A DNA stretch of 64,000 nt from Vulcanimicrobiota bacterium (GCA_027459645.1 DAIDHQ010000022.1:1-64000); one strand, 5' to 3'; positions 182 to 7,457 are shown, numbered from the stretch's first letter. Numbers and translations are program-made. Notes: generated by a model not told the origin, from the sequence alone.

Positions 182-1441
182 ATGCTCGACAACAATACGC
201 AGAATCTCGCAAGCGACGTCTTCGAAAACTACAAACGCTATCTGAATCCGCCGCTCGCGCGCGTGATGAAGCTCTCGGGTTCGCCCGTCGAAGTGCGCGC
301 GCAGGGCACGACGATTTGGGATCAGCACGGCAAAGCGTATCTCGATTTCGCAGGCGGCTACGGCGTCTTCACGCTCGGGCATTCGCATCCGCGCGTGATC
401 GCGGCGGTGCGCGAGCAGATGGAGTCGATGTCGCTTTCGGGTAAGACGATGTTCAACGTCGTGCTCGGCCGCGCGGCAAAGCGTTTGGCGGAACTCTCGC
501 CCGGCGATCTACGGTATTCGTTCTGGTGCAACAGCGGAACCGAGGCGGTGGAAGGCGCGATCAAACTCGCGCGTGCTGCGACGGGACGCGCCAAAGTCGT
601 CGCGACGTTGAACGCGTATCACGGAAAAACCATCGGCGCGCTTTCGATCAGCGGGCGCGAAACGTTTCAAACGCCGTTCCGTCCGTTGCTCGGGGACGTC
701 GAACACATCGGCTACGGCGACGCGAGCGGATTGGACGACGTGCTGCGCGATGCCGCGGCGTTCGTCGTCGAACCGGTGCAAGGCGAAGGCGGCGTCAACG
801 TTCCGGCCGCCGGATATTTGCGCGAGGTGCGCGAGGCGTGCGATCGCACGGGGGCGCTCTTCATCGCCGATGAAGTGCAGACGGGGCTCGGGCGTTGCGG
901 ATTCCTGTTCGGATGCGATCGCGACGGTGTCGTCCCCGACGTCATGACGCTCGCCAAAGGGCTCTCCGGCGGCATCATTCCCGTCGGCGCGTTTATCGCG
1001 CGTCCGGACGTATGGAATCGTGCGTATGCGAAGCAGCCGCTCGTACACACGTCGACCTTCGGCGGCAGCGAAATCGCCTGCGCCGCCGCGCTTGCGGCCA
1101 TGGACGTGCTCGAAAGCGACGGCCTCGTCCAGAACGCGAGCGATCGCGGACGGCAATTGCTTGAGGGGTGCGAAGCGCTCGCGGCGCAGTTCCCGCACGT
1201 CATCCGCGAGGTGCGCGGGGTCGGTTTGCTCGTCGGCGTCGAGCTCACGAGCGAAGGGTACGGCGGGTGGATCATCCCCGAAATGCTCAAGGCCGGCGTG
1301 ACGGCGGCCTGGACGCTTAACCAGCAGCGCGTCATTCGCTTGGAGCCGCCGCTGGTCGTCACCCGGGAAGAAGTCGAGACCGCGCTCGCGGCCTTGCGAG
1401 CAGGGGTAGCAACCGCTGCTGAGAAGCTAGGGCGTTTGTAA
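182..1441 (+). CDS. Class III (omega) aminotransferase, PLP-dependent
   Basis: A 419-residue fold-type I PLP enzyme of the acetylornithine/putrescine aminotransferase group. Visible hallmarks are CNSGTEAVEGAIKLAR for phosphate binding, the AFVVEPVQGEGG strand, ADEVQTGLGR, and the Schiff-base lysine in TLAKGLSGG (K259). The frame is open upstream to 65, but those codons are the antisense of the tRNA-like element and give a typical spurious GNRTRG peptide, so ATG 182 is chosen. It leads a cluster with an SRPBCC protein and an acyl-ACP-reductase-like enzyme that should make an aldehyde. Transamination of that aldehyde is therefore a possible job (inference). The amino donor and substrate cannot be read from the sequence. 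Confidence 0.9.
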   Translation: MLDNNTQNLASDVFENYKRYLNPPLARVMKLSGSPVEVRAQGTTIWDQHGKAYLDFAGGYGVFTLGHSHPRVIAAVREQMESMSLSGKTMFNVVLGRAAKRLAELSPGDLRYSFWCNSGTEAVEGAIKLARAATGRAKVVATLNAYHGKTIGALSISGRETFQTPFRPLLGDVEHIGYGDASGLDDVLRDAAAFVVEPVQGEGGVNVPAAGYLREVREACDRTGALFIADEVQTGLGRCGFLFGCDRDGVVPDVMTLAKGLSGGIIPVGAFIARPDVWNRAYAKQPLVHTSTFGGSEIACAAALAAMDVLESDGLVQNASDRGRQLLEGCEALAAQFPHVIREVRGVGLLVGVELTSEGYGGWIIPEMLKAGVTAAWTLNQQRVIRLEPPLVVTREEVETALAALRAGVATAAEKLGRL

Positions 1442-1448
1442 ATTTATC

Positions 1449-1886
1449 ATGCCCTATGTCGAGACCAGCATCGCGATCGCGGCGCCAGCGCGCGCCGTTT
1501 ACGAGCTCGCCAAAGATCAAGAGCGGTTCCCGCAGTTCATGCCGGACGTGGAAAGCGTCAAGGTGCTCGAACGGCACGCCGACCATTGGATCACGCGTTG
1601 GAAGACGCTGGTCGAGGACGCGCCGATCGAGTGGACGGAAGAAGACCGCTTTAACGACGCGGAGCTGCGCATCGATTACAAACTGCTCGAAGGCGATCTC
1701 GATACGTTCGAAGGCGCGTGGACCTTCGACGAGCGCGACGGCGTCACGCACGTAGTTCTGGGCGTAGAGTACGATTTCGGCGTTCCGACGCTCGCCGAGT
1801 TGATCGGCCCAACGCTCGAGAAGAAGGTCAAGGAGAACAGCGAGATGATGCTCGCGGCGCTCAAAGCGGAGGCGGAAAAACCGTGA
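1449..1886 (+). CDS. SRPBCC / START-like (COQ10-polyketide cyclase type) protein
   Basis: A 145-residue protein with the one-domain helix-grip pattern of the polyketide cyclase/COQ10 START family. It opens with the typical VETSIAIAAPARAVYELAKD strand-helix and the FPQFMPDVESVKVLER segment, and ends with a long amphipathic C-terminal helix. Members bind hydrophobic ligands such as quinones or lipids, and some have lyase or cyclase activity. The start lies 7 nt after the aminotransferase stop, and its stop overlaps the GTG of the next gene (GTGA), so it is translationally coupled to the acyl-ACP-reductase-like gene. A lipid or aldehyde ligand is plausible from context but not shown. Confidence 0.8.
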   Translation: MPYVETSIAIAAPARAVYELAKDQERFPQFMPDVESVKVLERHADHWITRWKTLVEDAPIEWTEEDRFNDAELRIDYKLLEGDLDTFEGAWTFDERDGVTHVVLGVEYDFGVPTLAELIGPTLEKKVKENSEMMLAALKAEAEKP

Positions 1887-3046
1887 CCAAATCGCTCCCC
1901 AAATTCTGCTTCGTCATCCATCCGCTCTCGCTTGACGACGTTGCGCGTTACGAACCGGGCGCGGCCGGTAAGGGAGCACCGATCATCCGCAAAATCATGG
2001 AGTGGATGCCTTCGTACGCCGCCGTCCATGTCACGGGAATTCGAACCCCTGACGGGCGCGAAGCCGAAGGGTGGTTCGTGGCGGCCCCGTTGCTGCCCGA
2101 CCAAATGATGGAATTTCCGCGCGAAGAGGTCTATAAGCGTATCGTTCGCGCGATCGAAATCGGCGCGGAACTCGGCGCGCAGGTCGCGGGGCTGGGAGCG
2201 TTCACCGGCGTCGTGGGCGACGGCGGCGTTACGATTGCGGAACGCTCGCCGATTCCCGTAACGACGGGAAACTCACTCACGATTGCCGCCGGCATTCAAA
2301 GTCTCTTTCGGGGCGCGCGCGAGATGGAGATCGATACCACGCAGGCCACGGCCGTGGTGGCCGGCGCGACCGGTTCGATCGGCGGCGCGTGCGTGCGACT
2401 CGTTGCGCCGAAGGTTCGCAAGGTCATCCTCGTTGCGCGCAATCAGACGCGCTTGGCAAAATACCACGAGTCGATCGCCGGGCAATTGCCCTGCGAATCG
2501 TCCTACACCACGGATATCTCGGCCGCCGTGCGGCAAGCGCAATTGATTCTTACCGCGACCTCGTCCACGCAAGACGTCATCGAACCCGAAGATTTGCAGA
2601 CCGGCGCGGTCGTGTGCGAACTCTCGCTTCCGCACGACGTCAGCCGCCGCGTTGCGCTCGAGCGTCCGGACGTGCTGGTGACCGAAGGTGGGAACATGCT
2701 CGTTCCGGGAAATCCGCGGTTCGAGCGCATTCGCGAGCCGGGGACCGAATTCGATTTGAATCTGCCGCCGCGAACGGCGCTCGCGTGCATGAGCGAAACG
2801 ATGGTGCTCGCGCTCGAACGGCGCTTCGAGCCGTACACCCTCGGTCGCGGCATCGACATCAACAAAGTGATCGAAATCGAACGCATGGCGACGGAATGCG
2901 GCTTCACGCTGGCGGACATGCGCGCGTTCGACGCGGCCATTACGCCCGAAAAAATCCGGGCGACGCGCGAAGCCGCGCGGCTTCGAGGTGGCTCCGCTCT
3001 ATCACCGGTAACGGCACAACGTGCAATGGGTGCGCCTTCCACATGA
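1883..3046 (+). CDS. Acyl-ACP reductase (AAR)-like dehydrogenase
   Basis: A 387-residue protein resembling cyanobacterial long-chain acyl-ACP reductase (aldehyde-forming) along its whole length. It has an N-terminal FVIHPLSLDDVARYE segment, then GLGAFTGVV and TTGNSLTIAAG, and an NADPH-binding Rossmann stretch ATAVVAGATGSIGGACVRL followed by ARNQTRL. The segment LACMSETMVLALE matches the AAR region holding the acyl-enzyme cysteine (here C302). Cyanobacterial AAR reduces fatty acyl-ACP to a fatty aldehyde. No aldehyde-deformylating oxygenase is visible, so the aldehyde would have another fate. GTG 1883 overlaps the upstream stop, and ATG 3043 of the next gene overlaps this stop (ATGA). Such genes are often annotated loosely as shikimate/quinate dehydrogenase. 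Confidence 0.75.
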   Translation: MTKSLPKFCFVIHPLSLDDVARYEPGAAGKGAPIIRKIMEWMPSYAAVHVTGIRTPDGREAEGWFVAAPLLPDQMMEFPREEVYKRIVRAIEIGAELGAQVAGLGAFTGVVGDGGVTIAERSPIPVTTGNSLTIAAGIQSLFRGAREMEIDTTQATAVVAGATGSIGGACVRLVAPKVRKVILVARNQTRLAKYHESIAGQLPCESSYTTDISAAVRQAQLILTATSSTQDVIEPEDLQTGAVVCELSLPHDVSRRVALERPDVLVTEGGNMLVPGNPRFERIREPGTEFDLNLPPRTALACMSETMVLALERRFEPYTLGRGIDINKVIEIERMATECGFTLADMRAFDAAITPEKIRATREAARLRGGSALSPVTAQRAMGAPST

Positions 3047-3948
3047 AACACATCGTCAGCGTTTCGCTCGGCTCGTCAACGCGCGATCACCGCGCTCGGG
3101 TGAGCTTGATGGGCGAGGAGTTCGAGATCTCGCGCGAGGGCGTCGACGGCAAGCTTGATGCCGCGATCGCGCGCGTGCAAGAACTCGACGGCAAGGTCGA
3201 CGCGATCGGCCTGGGCGGCATCGACGTCTATCTCTACGCGGGTTCGAAGCGGTACGCGTTGCGGGACGGACTGCGGCTGCTCAACGCTGCGAAGATCACG
3301 CCGGTCGTCGACGGGAGCGGCTTGAAGAACACTCTCGAGCGTAAAGCCGTACAGTTCTTGCAGGACGAGCTGCATGTGAATCTGCGCGGCAAGAAGGTCT
3401 TAATGGTGAGTGCGCTCGACCGTTTCGGCATGGCGCAGGCACTCGTCGATGCGGGTGCCGACGTGCTCTTCGGCGATTTTATCTTCGCCCTCGACAAAGA
3501 TATCGCCGTGCGCGATCTCAAGACGTTTGAAGAGATGGCGGAAAAGTATCTGCCCGACGCGTGTAAGCTGCCGTTTCAATTCTTCTATCCCACCGGAAAG
3601 AAACAAGAGAAGCCGCCCGAACCCAAATATCCGCAATATTATCAAGAAGCCGATGTGATCGCCGGCGATTTCCACTTCATGCGCCAGTTCATGCCCGACC
3701 GTCTCGACGGCAAAATCGTGCTGACGAACACCGTCACGGAAGCCAACATCGAAGAATTGCGCGTTCGAGGCGTGAAACTGCTCGTCACGACGACGCCGGA
3801 TTTTGAAGGACGCTCGTTCGGCACGAACGTGATCGAGGCGGCGCTGCTGGCGCTCCTGCGCAAACGCTGGGAAGACGTGACCGCCGAAGATTACGAGCGC
3901 GTGCTACGGGAATTGAACCTGCGGCCGCGCGTCATCGAACTCGCTTGA
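3043..3948 (+). CDS. Quinate 5-dehydrogenase-like protein of unknown role
   Basis: A 301-residue soluble protein. It contains a Rossmann-like strand-turn-helix (GKKVLMVSALDRFGMAQALV) followed by alternating strands and helices. Database names for such proteins tend to be 'quinate 5-dehydrogenase', but no catalytic residues of that enzyme can be pointed to here. It overlaps the AAR-like gene by 4 nt and the APC permease by 4 nt, so the three are made together. The tight pairing with an AAR-like gene suggests an accessory or second step in the same pathway (inference). Function not recognised. Confidence 0.6.
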   Translation: MKHIVSVSLGSSTRDHRARVSLMGEEFEISREGVDGKLDAAIARVQELDGKVDAIGLGGIDVYLYAGSKRYALRDGLRLLNAAKITPVVDGSGLKNTLERKAVQFLQDELHVNLRGKKVLMVSALDRFGMAQALVDAGADVLFGDFIFALDKDIAVRDLKTFEEMAEKYLPDACKLPFQFFYPTGKKQEKPPEPKYPQYYQEADVIAGDFHFMRQFMPDRLDGKIVLTNTVTEANIEELRVRGVKLLVTTTPDFEGRSFGTNVIEAALLALLRKRWEDVTAEDYERVLRELNLRPRVIELA

Positions 3949-5294
3949 TTCGGGGCGTCGTCTCAGACACGCGCCTGCCGCGCGTCTTGCACTACTTCGA
4001 TATCTCGGTTCTTGCGTCGGCGTCGATGGGGCCGGCATATTCGCTCGCTTCGACGATGGGACCGATGGTCGCGGCCGCCGGAACCGGCGCACCGCTCGCG
4101 TTTTTGCTCTTGTCGTTCGTGATGCTGTGCATTGCGGTAGCATTCATGCATCTCTCGCGCGTCGCGCCCAATGCGGGTTCGTCGTATTCCTGGATCCGCA
4201 TGTCGTTCGGGAATCGCGTGGGTGCCTACGGCGCGTGGTTGTTGATCCTCTCGAACTTCTTTGCGACGATGGCCATCGCCGTGCCCGCGGGCATATACAC
4301 CCTCGCGCTGATCGCCCCCGCGCACGAAAACGATCCGCTTCTTTCGGCGGTCGTCGGCGCGGTCTGGATCGTCGGGAGCTCCGTGCTGCTCTACGTCGGC
4401 ATGCGGCCGACCGCACTCGTGACGTTTTTGGCGCTTGCATTCGAAATGGTGGTGCTGGTCGTCACGGCCGTCGTTGCGTGGTTGCATCCGCCGGCAATCG
4501 ATAGCGCACGCACGATCGCGTCGGTCCCGCTGCCAACGGCGCGCTTTGCGGGATTCGTGACGGCGATGACGCTCGCGGTCTGGATGAACGACGGATGGGA
4601 GGTCAGCGCCTCGGCGAGTGAAGAGGTCGACGACCGGCCGTCGGCATCCGGACGCGGCGGGATCGCCGGATTGATCGCGTCGACGGTGGTGCTGCTGCTC
4701 TGCATGATGGCCTACCAGCATTTGGGGACGCAGCGCGGCTTCGTCGAGAACCAGGCCGACGCGCTGGCGTACGTGGGCACCTTGCTCGGGTCGGGCGTGT
4801 GGCGGACCGCGATCGTCGTGACCGTGTTGCTCTCGACGCTCACCACGCTGTGGACCACGGTGCTCTACCTCTCGCGCTCGGTCTTTGCGATGGGGCGAGA
4901 CGGATTGCTCCCCCGGCGTCTGGGCGCGCTGGACGAGCGAAGCGAACCGCTCGTCTCGCTGGCCGTCGTCACCGTCCTCGTCGTGATCTGCGAACTCGTG
5001 ACGGGCTTTTCGAAGAGCGCGGCCGATCAATTGACGCTCGTGCTCAACGCCAGTTCCGTATTTCTCGGTTTGCTTTTCGTGCTCACGGCCGGTGCGGCGA
5101 TCCGCCGTTTTGCTCGCGACCCTGCGGCCCGGCTGGGAGCGGTGGTAGTGCCGCTACTTGGCGCGCTCGCGCTGCTTGCGGTGATTGTGGCGACGATCGC
5201 GCTCGAAGACCGCCGGCTGCAGCTGTACGCTTGGGGCGGTATCGCCCTGGGTATACCGTTTGCGCTCTGGCGTGGCCGCGCCCGTCAAGGATAG
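3945..5294 (+). CDS. APC-superfamily amino acid/polyamine permease
   Basis: A 449-residue polytopic membrane protein with about 12 hydrophobic segments. It shows the APC-family N-terminal pattern: unwound helix 1 near ASASMGPAYSLASTMG, then the NAGSSYSWIRMSFGNRVGAYGAW stretch typical of amino acid permeases. TTG 3945 overlaps the preceding stop (TTGA); no better in-frame start exists close by. It closes the aminotransferase/AAR-like cluster and could import an amine or amino acid donor or product for that pathway. Substrate specificity cannot be deduced. Confidence 0.85.
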   Translation: MIRGVVSDTRLPRVLHYFDISVLASASMGPAYSLASTMGPMVAAAGTGAPLAFLLLSFVMLCIAVAFMHLSRVAPNAGSSYSWIRMSFGNRVGAYGAWLLILSNFFATMAIAVPAGIYTLALIAPAHENDPLLSAVVGAVWIVGSSVLLYVGMRPTALVTFLALAFEMVVLVVTAVVAWLHPPAIDSARTIASVPLPTARFAGFVTAMTLAVWMNDGWEVSASASEEVDDRPSASGRGGIAGLIASTVVLLLCMMAYQHLGTQRGFVENQADALAYVGTLLGSGVWRTAIVVTVLLSTLTTLWTTVLYLSRSVFAMGRDGLLPRRLGALDERSEPLVSLAVVTVLVVICELVTGFSKSAADQLTLVLNASSVFLGLLFVLTAGAAIRRFARDPAARLGAVVVPLLGALALLAVIVATIALEDRRLQLYAWGGIALGIPFALWRGRARQG

Positions 5295-5422: not shown

Positions 5423-5944
5423 TTGAACGAAAAAGAGATCGTCCTCACAGCAGAGGGCCTGGCTAAACTTCAAGACGAGCTGGACGAGCTCAAGACCGTC
5501 CATCGCAAGGAAGTCAACGATCGTATTCGCCAGGCGAAAGAGTACGGCGACCTCAGCGAAAACGCCGAGTACGAAGACGCCAAGCAAGAACAAGCCTTTA
5601 TCGAAGGCCGTATCCTCAAGCTCGAAGGGATGATTCGCAACTCGCGTATCATCGACGAGTCGGAATATGCCGCCGACGAAGTACATCTGGGCGCGACCGT
5701 CAAGGTGAAAGACCTCAAGAACGGCGAGAGCTACGAATTCCACGTCGTAGGTTCCGCGGAAGCCGACCCAGCATCCAAGCGGATATCGAACGAATCGCCG
5801 CTCGGCCGCGCGATGATCGGGCACAAGAAGGGCGAGACCGTCGACGTTGCAACGCCGCGCGGCGTCGTAAAATACAAGATCGAAGCGATCAAGAACGGCA
5901 ACGGCGCCACGCCGGCGAAGAAAGCCACCAAGAAAGCTTCCTAA
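5423..5944 (+). CDS. greA: Transcription elongation factor GreA
   Basis: 173 residues. The N-terminal coiled coil carries the conserved GDLSENAEYEDAKQEQAFIEGRI segment whose acidic tip rescues backtracked RNA polymerase by stimulating transcript cleavage. The C-terminal FKBP-like domain (ATVKVKDL to GHKKGETVDV) contacts the polymerase. TTG 5423 gives the family N-terminus LNEKEIVLTAEGLAKL. The AGGAGG at 5385-5390 is part of a repeat and is too far upstream unless a rare ATT at 5402 is used. The lysine-rich C-terminal tail (KKATKKAS) is an extension beyond the usual end. lysS follows 13 nt later, an arrangement common in bacteria. Confidence 0.93.
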   Translation: MNEKEIVLTAEGLAKLQDELDELKTVHRKEVNDRIRQAKEYGDLSENAEYEDAKQEQAFIEGRILKLEGMIRNSRIIDESEYAADEVHLGATVKVKDLKNGESYEFHVVGSAEADPASKRISNESPLGRAMIGHKKGETVDVATPRGVVKYKIEAIKNGNGATPAKKATKKAS

Positions 5945-5957
5945 CGAGAGGTCCGAT

Positions 5958-7457
5958 TTGGACGAAGAGTTCGGCAAAAGCGAAGCAGCACTCGTAGCGG
6001 CCAGACGGGAATCTCTGGCCGCTTTACGTTCGCGGGGCCGCGACCCGTTCGCGCAGACGCGCTTTTCCGTCGACGCAACTGCGGCGGAATTAAACGCGCG
6101 CTACGGCTTTTTGGAAATCGGCCAGCATGCGGAGACGGAGAATTGGAACGTCGCCGGTCGGGTGATGTCGATTCGCACCGCCGGCAAAACGATGTTCGTC
6201 GATCTTCACGACCGTACGGGGCGGCTACAGCTCTACGTTCGCAAAGATGAATTGGGCGAAACGTTCGCCGATTGGGAAGATCTGGATCGCGGCGACGTCG
6301 TCGGCGTGAGCGGTTTCATGTTTCGCTCGAAAAAAGGCGACCTCACGCTACACGTGAAGTCGTTCGCCGTTCTTTCGAAGTCGCTGATGCCGTTGCCCGA
6401 CAAATGGCACGGCTTGCAAGACGTCGAGAAACGCTACCGCCAGCGCTACGTCGATTTGATCGTCAACGCCGGCGTTCGCGACACGATGATCCTGCGCAGC
6501 AAGATCGTTTCGGAAATGCGCCGCTTCATCGACGCGCAGGGTTTTTACGAGTGCGAGACGCCGACGCTCCTGCACGTGGCCGGAGGCGCTTCCGCTCGTC
6601 CGTTCCTTACCAGCGTCAACGCGCTTTCCGGCGAGGAGATGCAACTGCGCATCGCGACGGAACTGAACTTAAAGCGTTTGATCGTCGGCGGCTTGGAACG
6701 GGTATACGAGATCGGGCGCATATTCCGTAACGAAGGCATCGATACCACGCACAATCCCGAATTCACGATGCTCGAACTCTATGCCGCGTACTGGGACGTA
6801 CACGACATGATGGATTTCAACGAAGCGCTGATCAACGATCTGGTGCAGGTCGTTACGGGCGGCGCGGAAGAGTTACTGGTCGGCGAGCAGACGATCTCGT
6901 TTGCGCGTCCGTTCAGGCGGGTGGCGTATCTCGATGCGATGCGCGACGGTTCCGGCGGCAAATACACGCGCGAACAATTGCTCGATCCGAGCGGCGCCGC
7001 GAAGATCGTCGAAGAGCTCGGGTTGCCGAAATCGCCGACGCACGGGCACGCGCTCGACAAGATCTTCGAACGCCTGGTCGAGCCCGCGCTCGTTCAACCG
7101 ACGTTTGTCACCGATTACCCGGTGATCATCTCGCCGCTCGCCAAGCGCAAAGCGGGCGATCCCGAACTGGTCGACCGCTACGAACTCTTCTGCAATCGCA
7201 TGGAGATTTCAAACGCATTCACCGAGCTGAACGATCCCGACGATCAGCGCGGGCGCTTCGAAGCGCAGGCACGCGAACGCGCCGCCGGCGACGAAGAGGT
7301 GCCGCAGCCGGATTGGGATTTCGTTCGAGCGCTCGAATATGGGATGCCGCCGACGGCCGGAATCGGCATCGGCGTCGACCGGCTCGTCATGCTGCTGACC
7401 AACAACGTCTCGATCCGCGACGTATTGCTCTTTCCGCTGCAGCGTCAGCACGGGTAA
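5958..7457 (+). CDS. lysS: Lysyl-tRNA synthetase, class II
   Basis: 499 residues, the usual length of class II LysRS. An N-terminal OB-fold anticodon-binding domain spans about 60-150 (VAGRVMSIRTAGKTMFVDL). The catalytic domain follows with motif 1 around residues 170-210, motif 2 near FRNEGIDTTHNPEFTMLE, and motif 3 GIGIGVDRLVMLLT near the end. It charges tRNA-Lys. TTG 5958 lies 7 nt after GAGAGG. It follows greA and precedes a tiny cysteine-rich gene by 7 nt, so the three may share a transcript. Confidence 0.96.
   Translation: MDEEFGKSEAALVAARRESLAALRSRGRDPFAQTRFSVDATAAELNARYGFLEIGQHAETENWNVAGRVMSIRTAGKTMFVDLHDRTGRLQLYVRKDELGETFADWEDLDRGDVVGVSGFMFRSKKGDLTLHVKSFAVLSKSLMPLPDKWHGLQDVEKRYRQRYVDLIVNAGVRDTMILRSKIVSEMRRFIDAQGFYECETPTLLHVAGGASARPFLTSVNALSGEEMQLRIATELNLKRLIVGGLERVYEIGRIFRNEGIDTTHNPEFTMLELYAAYWDVHDMMDFNEALINDLVQVVTGGAEELLVGEQTISFARPFRRVAYLDAMRDGSGGKYTREQLLDPSGAAKIVEELGLPKSPTHGHALDKIFERLVEPALVQPTFVTDYPVIISPLAKRKAGDPELVDRYELFCNRMEISNAFTELNDPDDQRGRFEAQARERAAGDEEVPQPDWDFVRALEYGMPPTAGIGIGVDRLVMLLTNNVSIRDVLLFPLQRQHG

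Follow-up and report, generated by a model that had tools for sequence, protein, structure and literature searches.

What is made by the five closely packed genes at the start of a 64,000-nucleotide stretch from a Vulcanimicrobiota bacterium (GCA_027459645.1, DAIDHQ010000022.1:1-64000; this whole stretch is called the window here)? The genes encode a class III aminotransferase (AT), an SRPBCC protein, a protein resembling the acyl-ACP (acyl carrier protein) reductase (AAR), a 301-residue protein termed P301 and an APC-superfamily permease. Here, we propose with moderate confidence, and by analogy to characterised enzymes, that the first four genes form the core of a split housekeeping module of thioester reductase and transaminase, which would make a long-chain amine, with a membrane lipid as its probable destination. 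The chemistry as such and the fused enzymes are already known, and such reductase-transaminase pairs have been found fused in pigment and alkaloid pathways; in the window, the same chemistry would be encoded by separate, near-universal genes beside housekeeping genes. A literature search, which left most subscription papers outside, found no description of the split cluster, of its conservation throughout the phylum or of P301.

The AT and the AAR are predicted to be one functional unit and not a chance pairing, since both find their best match in the two halves of PigE, fusions of the two proteins exist and their linkage is conserved. Within NCBIfam, AT matches the aminotransferase half of PigE (NF053554) with 418.8 bits and the AAR matches its reductase half with 194.2 bits, both below the cut-off of 850 bits.

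The AT belongs to Pfam Aminotran_3 (4.8e-99) and carries its pyridoxal phosphate (PLP) lysine, K259, within the segment TLAKGLSGG. In a phylogenetic tree, it falls together with the ATs of the Eremiobacterota clusters and of those in Actinomycetota metagenome-assembled genomes (MAGs) with a support of 97/96, inside a superclade that also holds PigE, the AT-AAR fusions, the ATs of Desulfotomaculia and PatA from E. coli. An assignment as acetylornithine aminotransferase (ArgD) was considered and rejected, as the window AT is split from the ArgD-like enzymes with a support of 100/99 and scores below the cut-offs of TIGR00707 and PRK03244.

For the AAR, the sequence-only reading of this DNA had pointed to a segment with the catalytic cysteine and to an NADPH loop, and both are present where they were claimed, as ACMSETMV with Cys302 and as GATGSIG at residues 161-167. 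Cys302 aligns with Cys294 of SeAAR and with the cysteine of PigE and is invariant in 21 diverse homologues. The same holds for G161, G164, I166 and G167 of the NADP loop, and both motifs as a whole are invariant or nearly so in this set. The likeness to the cyanobacterial AAR (TIGR04058, PDB 6jzq), as it had been put forward, stands for the fold family, the aligned cysteine and the GATGxIG loop, but the protein is nearer to PigE (213 bits against PDB 4ppm) than to the cyanobacterial enzyme (150 bits) in a profile comparison. By these scores, the reductase domain of PigE is its closest characterised relative. Since it reaches 77.5 bits against TIGR04058, where the curated cut-off is 449.7, the AAR is a relative and not an equivalog member of this family. 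Furthermore, the cyanobacterial enzyme is partnered by an aldehyde-deformylating oxygenase (ADO), whereas an aminotransferase is the partner in the window. In Pfam, the AAR matches a Rossmann domain of the Shikimate_DH type (1.4e-7).

PigE of the prodigiosin pathway thus has the same pair of activities, an AAR-like thioester reductase and a class III aminotransferase, with the catalytic cysteine aligned. It is one fused protein of a pigment pathway, whereas the window contains two genes together with SRPBCC and P301, near-universal in the phylum. In cell lysate, PigE reduces and transaminates a thioester (PMC8341465). The order of an AT domain followed by an AAR-like domain is also given for TamH, KecF, PP_2782, TfFusion, TmFusion and TsFusion in the accessible text of three reports (PMC9594044, PMC6498172, PMC10829540). 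In contrast to the window genes, these are fused and assigned to secondary metabolism, and the accessible text describes neither a P301 nor an SRPBCC partner for them. According to these same portions, TamA-TamH turn fatty acids into amines, TamH accepts C7-C14 aldehydes and yields amines (PMC9594044), and natural AT-AAR fusions of Pseudomonas putida, Thermaerobacter and Thermincola use L-Glu to transaminate aliphatic aldehydes (PMC10829540).

The sequence-only reading had described the genes as a coupled cluster, which is borne out by their arrangement as a single run on the + strand and by the conservation of the core. The features are as follows:

182-1441, + strand: class III PLP aminotransferase (AT), 419 amino acids (aa), ATG start
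1449-1886, + strand: SRPBCC protein, Polyketide_cyc-type, 145 aa, ATG start
1883-3046, + strand: acyl-ACP-reductase-like protein (AAR), 387 aa, GTG start
3043-3948, + strand: P301, 301 aa, ATG start
3945-5294, + strand: APC-superfamily permease, 449 aa, TTG start
5424-5944 (start approximate), + strand: greA, anchoring the conserved block on its downstream side
5958-7457, + strand: lysS (lysyl-tRNA synthetase), likewise a downstream anchor of this block, in three groups

Stop and start codons overlap by 4 bp at the SRPBCC/AAR, AAR/P301 and P301/APC junctions, and a gap of 7 nt separates AT from SRPBCC. The five-gene run (182-5294) is followed on its 3' side by greA and then lysS.

Conservation was followed in 60 relatives from the phylum Eremiobacterota, 44 of which are genomes of good quality. 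The AAR is present in 58 of the 60 and in all 44 good genomes, and a strong AT match was found in 57/60 and 43/44, respectively. For the 48 genomes in which the two share a contig, their distance is at most 8.4 kb in 48/48 cases and below 1 kb in 35. A chance arrangement is excluded, because the AAR is near-universal and the AT lies close by in each of these cases. P301 was found in 9/9 genomes spread over the phylum. The order AT-SRPBCC-AAR-P301 does not change between the families looked at, and greA-lysS usually comes next. Conservation of the gene set was found for these four genes across the phylum and, in a changed order, in MAGs of Actinomycetota, but not for the APC permease, which among the Eremiobacterota families looked at is confined to the window's own.

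This distribution bears on the possibility that the same amine chemistry leads to a specialised, alkaloid-like metabolite (cf. prodiginine, tambjamine and koreenceine) and not to a membrane lipid. The characterised AT-AAR relatives, all assigned to secondary metabolites, speak for such a product. However, genes that are retained in every good genome and stand beside greA-lysS in the regions read look like core metabolism, and we consider a specialised metabolite unlikely.

A scan for relatives of P301 that reached beyond the phylum yielded at least 545 of them, and 80 loci were kept. Among these, 33 show the order AT-SRPBCC-AAR-P301, three (Oleimmundimicrobium and Actinomycetes MAGs) show P301-AT-SRPBCC-AAR and five (Aquicultor and its allies) show P301-AAR. 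Here, Aquicultor encodes AT and an SRPBCC gene as a second pair away from P301-AAR. In Desulfotomaculia, the AAR again sits upstream of greA-lysS. A sample of 149 Bacillota-type genomes from across the Desulfofundulus phylum contains P301 in 117, the AAR in 104 and both in 102 genomes (Fisher p 5e-18), while a stand-alone strong AT occurs in 57 genomes, 56 of which also have the AAR (p 8e-11); both p-values overstate the case, because related genomes are not independent. For the second test, the AT threshold was picked after the scores had been seen, and genomes with a fused gene as best AT match were excluded. P301 adjoins 77 of the 86 stand-alone AARs of this sample. Beyond the phylum too, P301 is the most constant partner of the AAR. 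Fusions of AT and AAR of about 880-980 aa, with their domains ordered as in TamH and KecF, are found in Bacillota-type genomes as well. Within these fusions (loci L219-L226), an insertion was seen in the AAR domain, and one locus (L225) has both a fused and a stand-alone AAR.

Non-linkage of the AT and the AAR-like gene, which would have spoken against the coupling seen by the sequence-only reading, was tested for, and the opposite was found in the same-contig distances, the fusions and the co-occurrence. These data also bear on a reading in which the pathway of the cluster ends at a fatty aldehyde or alcohol, with the AT as an unrelated amino-acid enzyme placed next to it by coincidence. Many genomes do have P301-AAR without an adjacent AT, as such a reading would allow. 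Nevertheless, the fusions, a linkage seen throughout the phylum whenever both genes share a contig, the co-occurrence elsewhere and ArgD-like paralogues encoded at other sites of the source genome make it very improbable.

P301 had been described as a partner of unknown function. It is indeed named by neither Pfam nor NCBIfam, both of which gave zero matches, and sequence searches of the PDB returned chance hits only; but it is more than an uncharacterised neighbour, as it accompanies the AAR in 102 of the 104 AAR genomes of the Bacillota-type sample. Two AlphaFold2 (AF2) models, built with different lead sequences, reached pLDDT (predicted local distance difference test) values of 90.4 and 91.7 and predict a two-domain, AAR-like fold. 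The top match among solved structures was the AAR for both (Z 14.5, root-mean-square deviation (rmsd) 4.3, 251 residues aligned; and Z 13.6, rmsd 4.4, 248 aligned). A related domain from the carmabin pathway and then glutamate dehydrogenases follow in the ranking (Z 10.7-11.0). The likeness is one of predicted structure, since a comparison of the P301 and AAR profiles with hhalign gave no signal (probability 2%, 22 columns). Among 41 sequences, no cysteine is found in the invariant residues, and the Rossmann loop reads SALDRFGMA, without the GxxGxxG motif of the AAR. From these models, the economical reading is that P301 is probably a catalytically altered, AAR-fold partner of the AAR.

P301 could instead be a dehydrogenase-like enzyme in its own right, with a step preceding or following that of the AAR. 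Its 52 invariant residues, Asp90, Lys95, Asp126 and Arg127 among them, suggest an active site, and glutamate and shikimate dehydrogenase folds rank next in the structural comparison. Set against this are the AAR as top structural match and the lack of the classical glycine motif, while a position beside the AAR in 77/86 cases also fits a subunit. To an independent enzyme we give limited credence, and the reading of P301 as an altered partner of the AAR is kept below.

The SRPBCC protein (Pfam Polyketide_cyc, 8.8e-20) is a predicted binder of small molecules or lipids and accompanies the AT throughout Eremiobacterota, as well as in Actinomycetota and Aquicultor. The permease (Pfam AA_permease_2, 2.3e-33) lies outside the conserved core. 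In Desulfotomaculia, genes for an SCP2-type lipid carrier and an APC permease often come after P301 (e.g., locus L123, 10929-12621), which echoes the lipid binder and the permease flanking P301 in the window.

With such a permease, the pathway might also run in the catabolic direction, where the APC protein would import an amine, the AT would convert it to an aldehyde and the AAR-like protein, as an acylating aldehyde dehydrogenase, would form acyl-CoA. The coupling of the permease gene in the window, its counterpart after P301 in Desulfotomaculia and the presence of the putrescine aminotransferase PatA of E. coli in the AT superclade can be read in this way. PatA/YgjG (NF008570) is likewise a class III AT, with terminal amines as its substrates, but it is placed in a tree group of its own, and the window AT scores 411.6 bits against a cut-off of 612. 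Furthermore, the permease gene is not part of the core, the precedents PigE and TamH run in the opposite direction and a near-universal retention would be odd for a catabolic option. A catabolic role thus appears improbable.

In the biosynthetic direction that we favour, the AAR would take up a fatty acyl group from ACP (or CoA) as a thioester on Cys302, and its reduction by NAD(P)H would release the aldehyde. Transamination of this aldehyde by the AT, with glutamate or a similar donor, would then yield a primary long-chain amine. These steps from thioester via aldehyde to amine would follow from the characterised relatives TamH and PigE; we infer the substrate, the product, the lipid that receives it and what SRPBCC and P301 contribute. 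SRPBCC probably acts as a shield or carrier for the hydrophobic aldehyde or amine, and P301, with an AAR fold but without the catalytic residues of the AAR, probably joins the reductase as a partner subunit. The amine probably enters a polar membrane lipid, for example one of the N-glyceroyl alkylamine type. The hypothesis of the sequence-only reading, a long-chain amine or amino-lipid as product, is partly supported.

Phosphoglycolipids with N-glyceroyl alkylamines occur in Thermus and Meiothermus (PMC3398001, PMC3035268) and, by the accessible text of one report, in Moorella (PMC13274423). As known from Thermus, Deinococcus and Moorella, they contain a long-chain primary amine such as the candidate module would make; they are a lipid class and not a gene family, and we infer their tie to the cluster. 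According to a paper of 2022, the enzymes that build the extra hydrophobic chain of Thermus were unidentified (PMC9636437). The gene set is a concrete and testable candidate for the source of the long-chain amine in Thermus and Deinococcus membranes. A more far-reaching version, with AAR and P301 as a heteromeric acyl-ACP reductase which together with AT supplies the amine of N-glyceroyl alkylamines, and with this lipid pathway among the core traits of Eremiobacterota and of numerous Bacillota-type and Actinomycetota lineages, is tentative and in our view doubtful.

Besides the inflated p-values, several points weigh against a module that makes a lipid amine. Purified PigE alone showed no reductase activity (PMC8341465). 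The AT is missing, at the threshold used, in 17 of the 104 AAR genomes of the Bacillota-type sample. The one direct hint at a link to these lipids, TIGR04058 matches in two Deinococcota control genomes (Thermus composti and Deinobacterium chartae), is weak, and M. jannaschii matched as well. The length of the acyl chain cannot be deduced from genomes. For Vulcanimicrobium alpinus, the one cultured isolate of Eremiobacterota, the lipid data list unidentified lipids. We know of no alkylamine lipid in many of the genomes with P301-AAR, so that the pair may have another or a wider role. V. alpinus WC8-2 very probably contains the cluster itself (locus L038), and a cultured carrier would thus already exist.

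A few further observations concern the surroundings of the genes. In most Bacillota-type loci (L209-L218), an open reading frame of ~180 aa directly precedes P301-AAR, and Aquicultor (L082) has a 209-aa protein with a helix-turn-helix-like sequence at the same position. The preceding reading frame is possibly a regulator of the module. Searches of plasmids gave no match with P301; with the AAR they returned proteobacterial homologues, mostly fused to an AT, and one match from Streptomyces. A Leisingera plasmid (L206, 6594-10781) carries a 4.2-kb gene with AAR-like and aminotransferase regions beside an MMPL transporter.

The window begins at the start of its contig in the assembly. At this end, on the minus strand at 96-170, lies a sequence like the 3' end of a tRNA; ARAGORN calls no tRNA within the window. 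Scans of the cluster region for promoters and repeats were uninformative. A second copy of the whole cluster with lysS and greA, at ~82% identity, is located on a 27.6-kb contig (C24; locus L036, 6533-14395). A duplication within the genome was considered here, but as the source assembly carries 2.28% contamination, this copy probably stems from a contaminating contig of a close relative.

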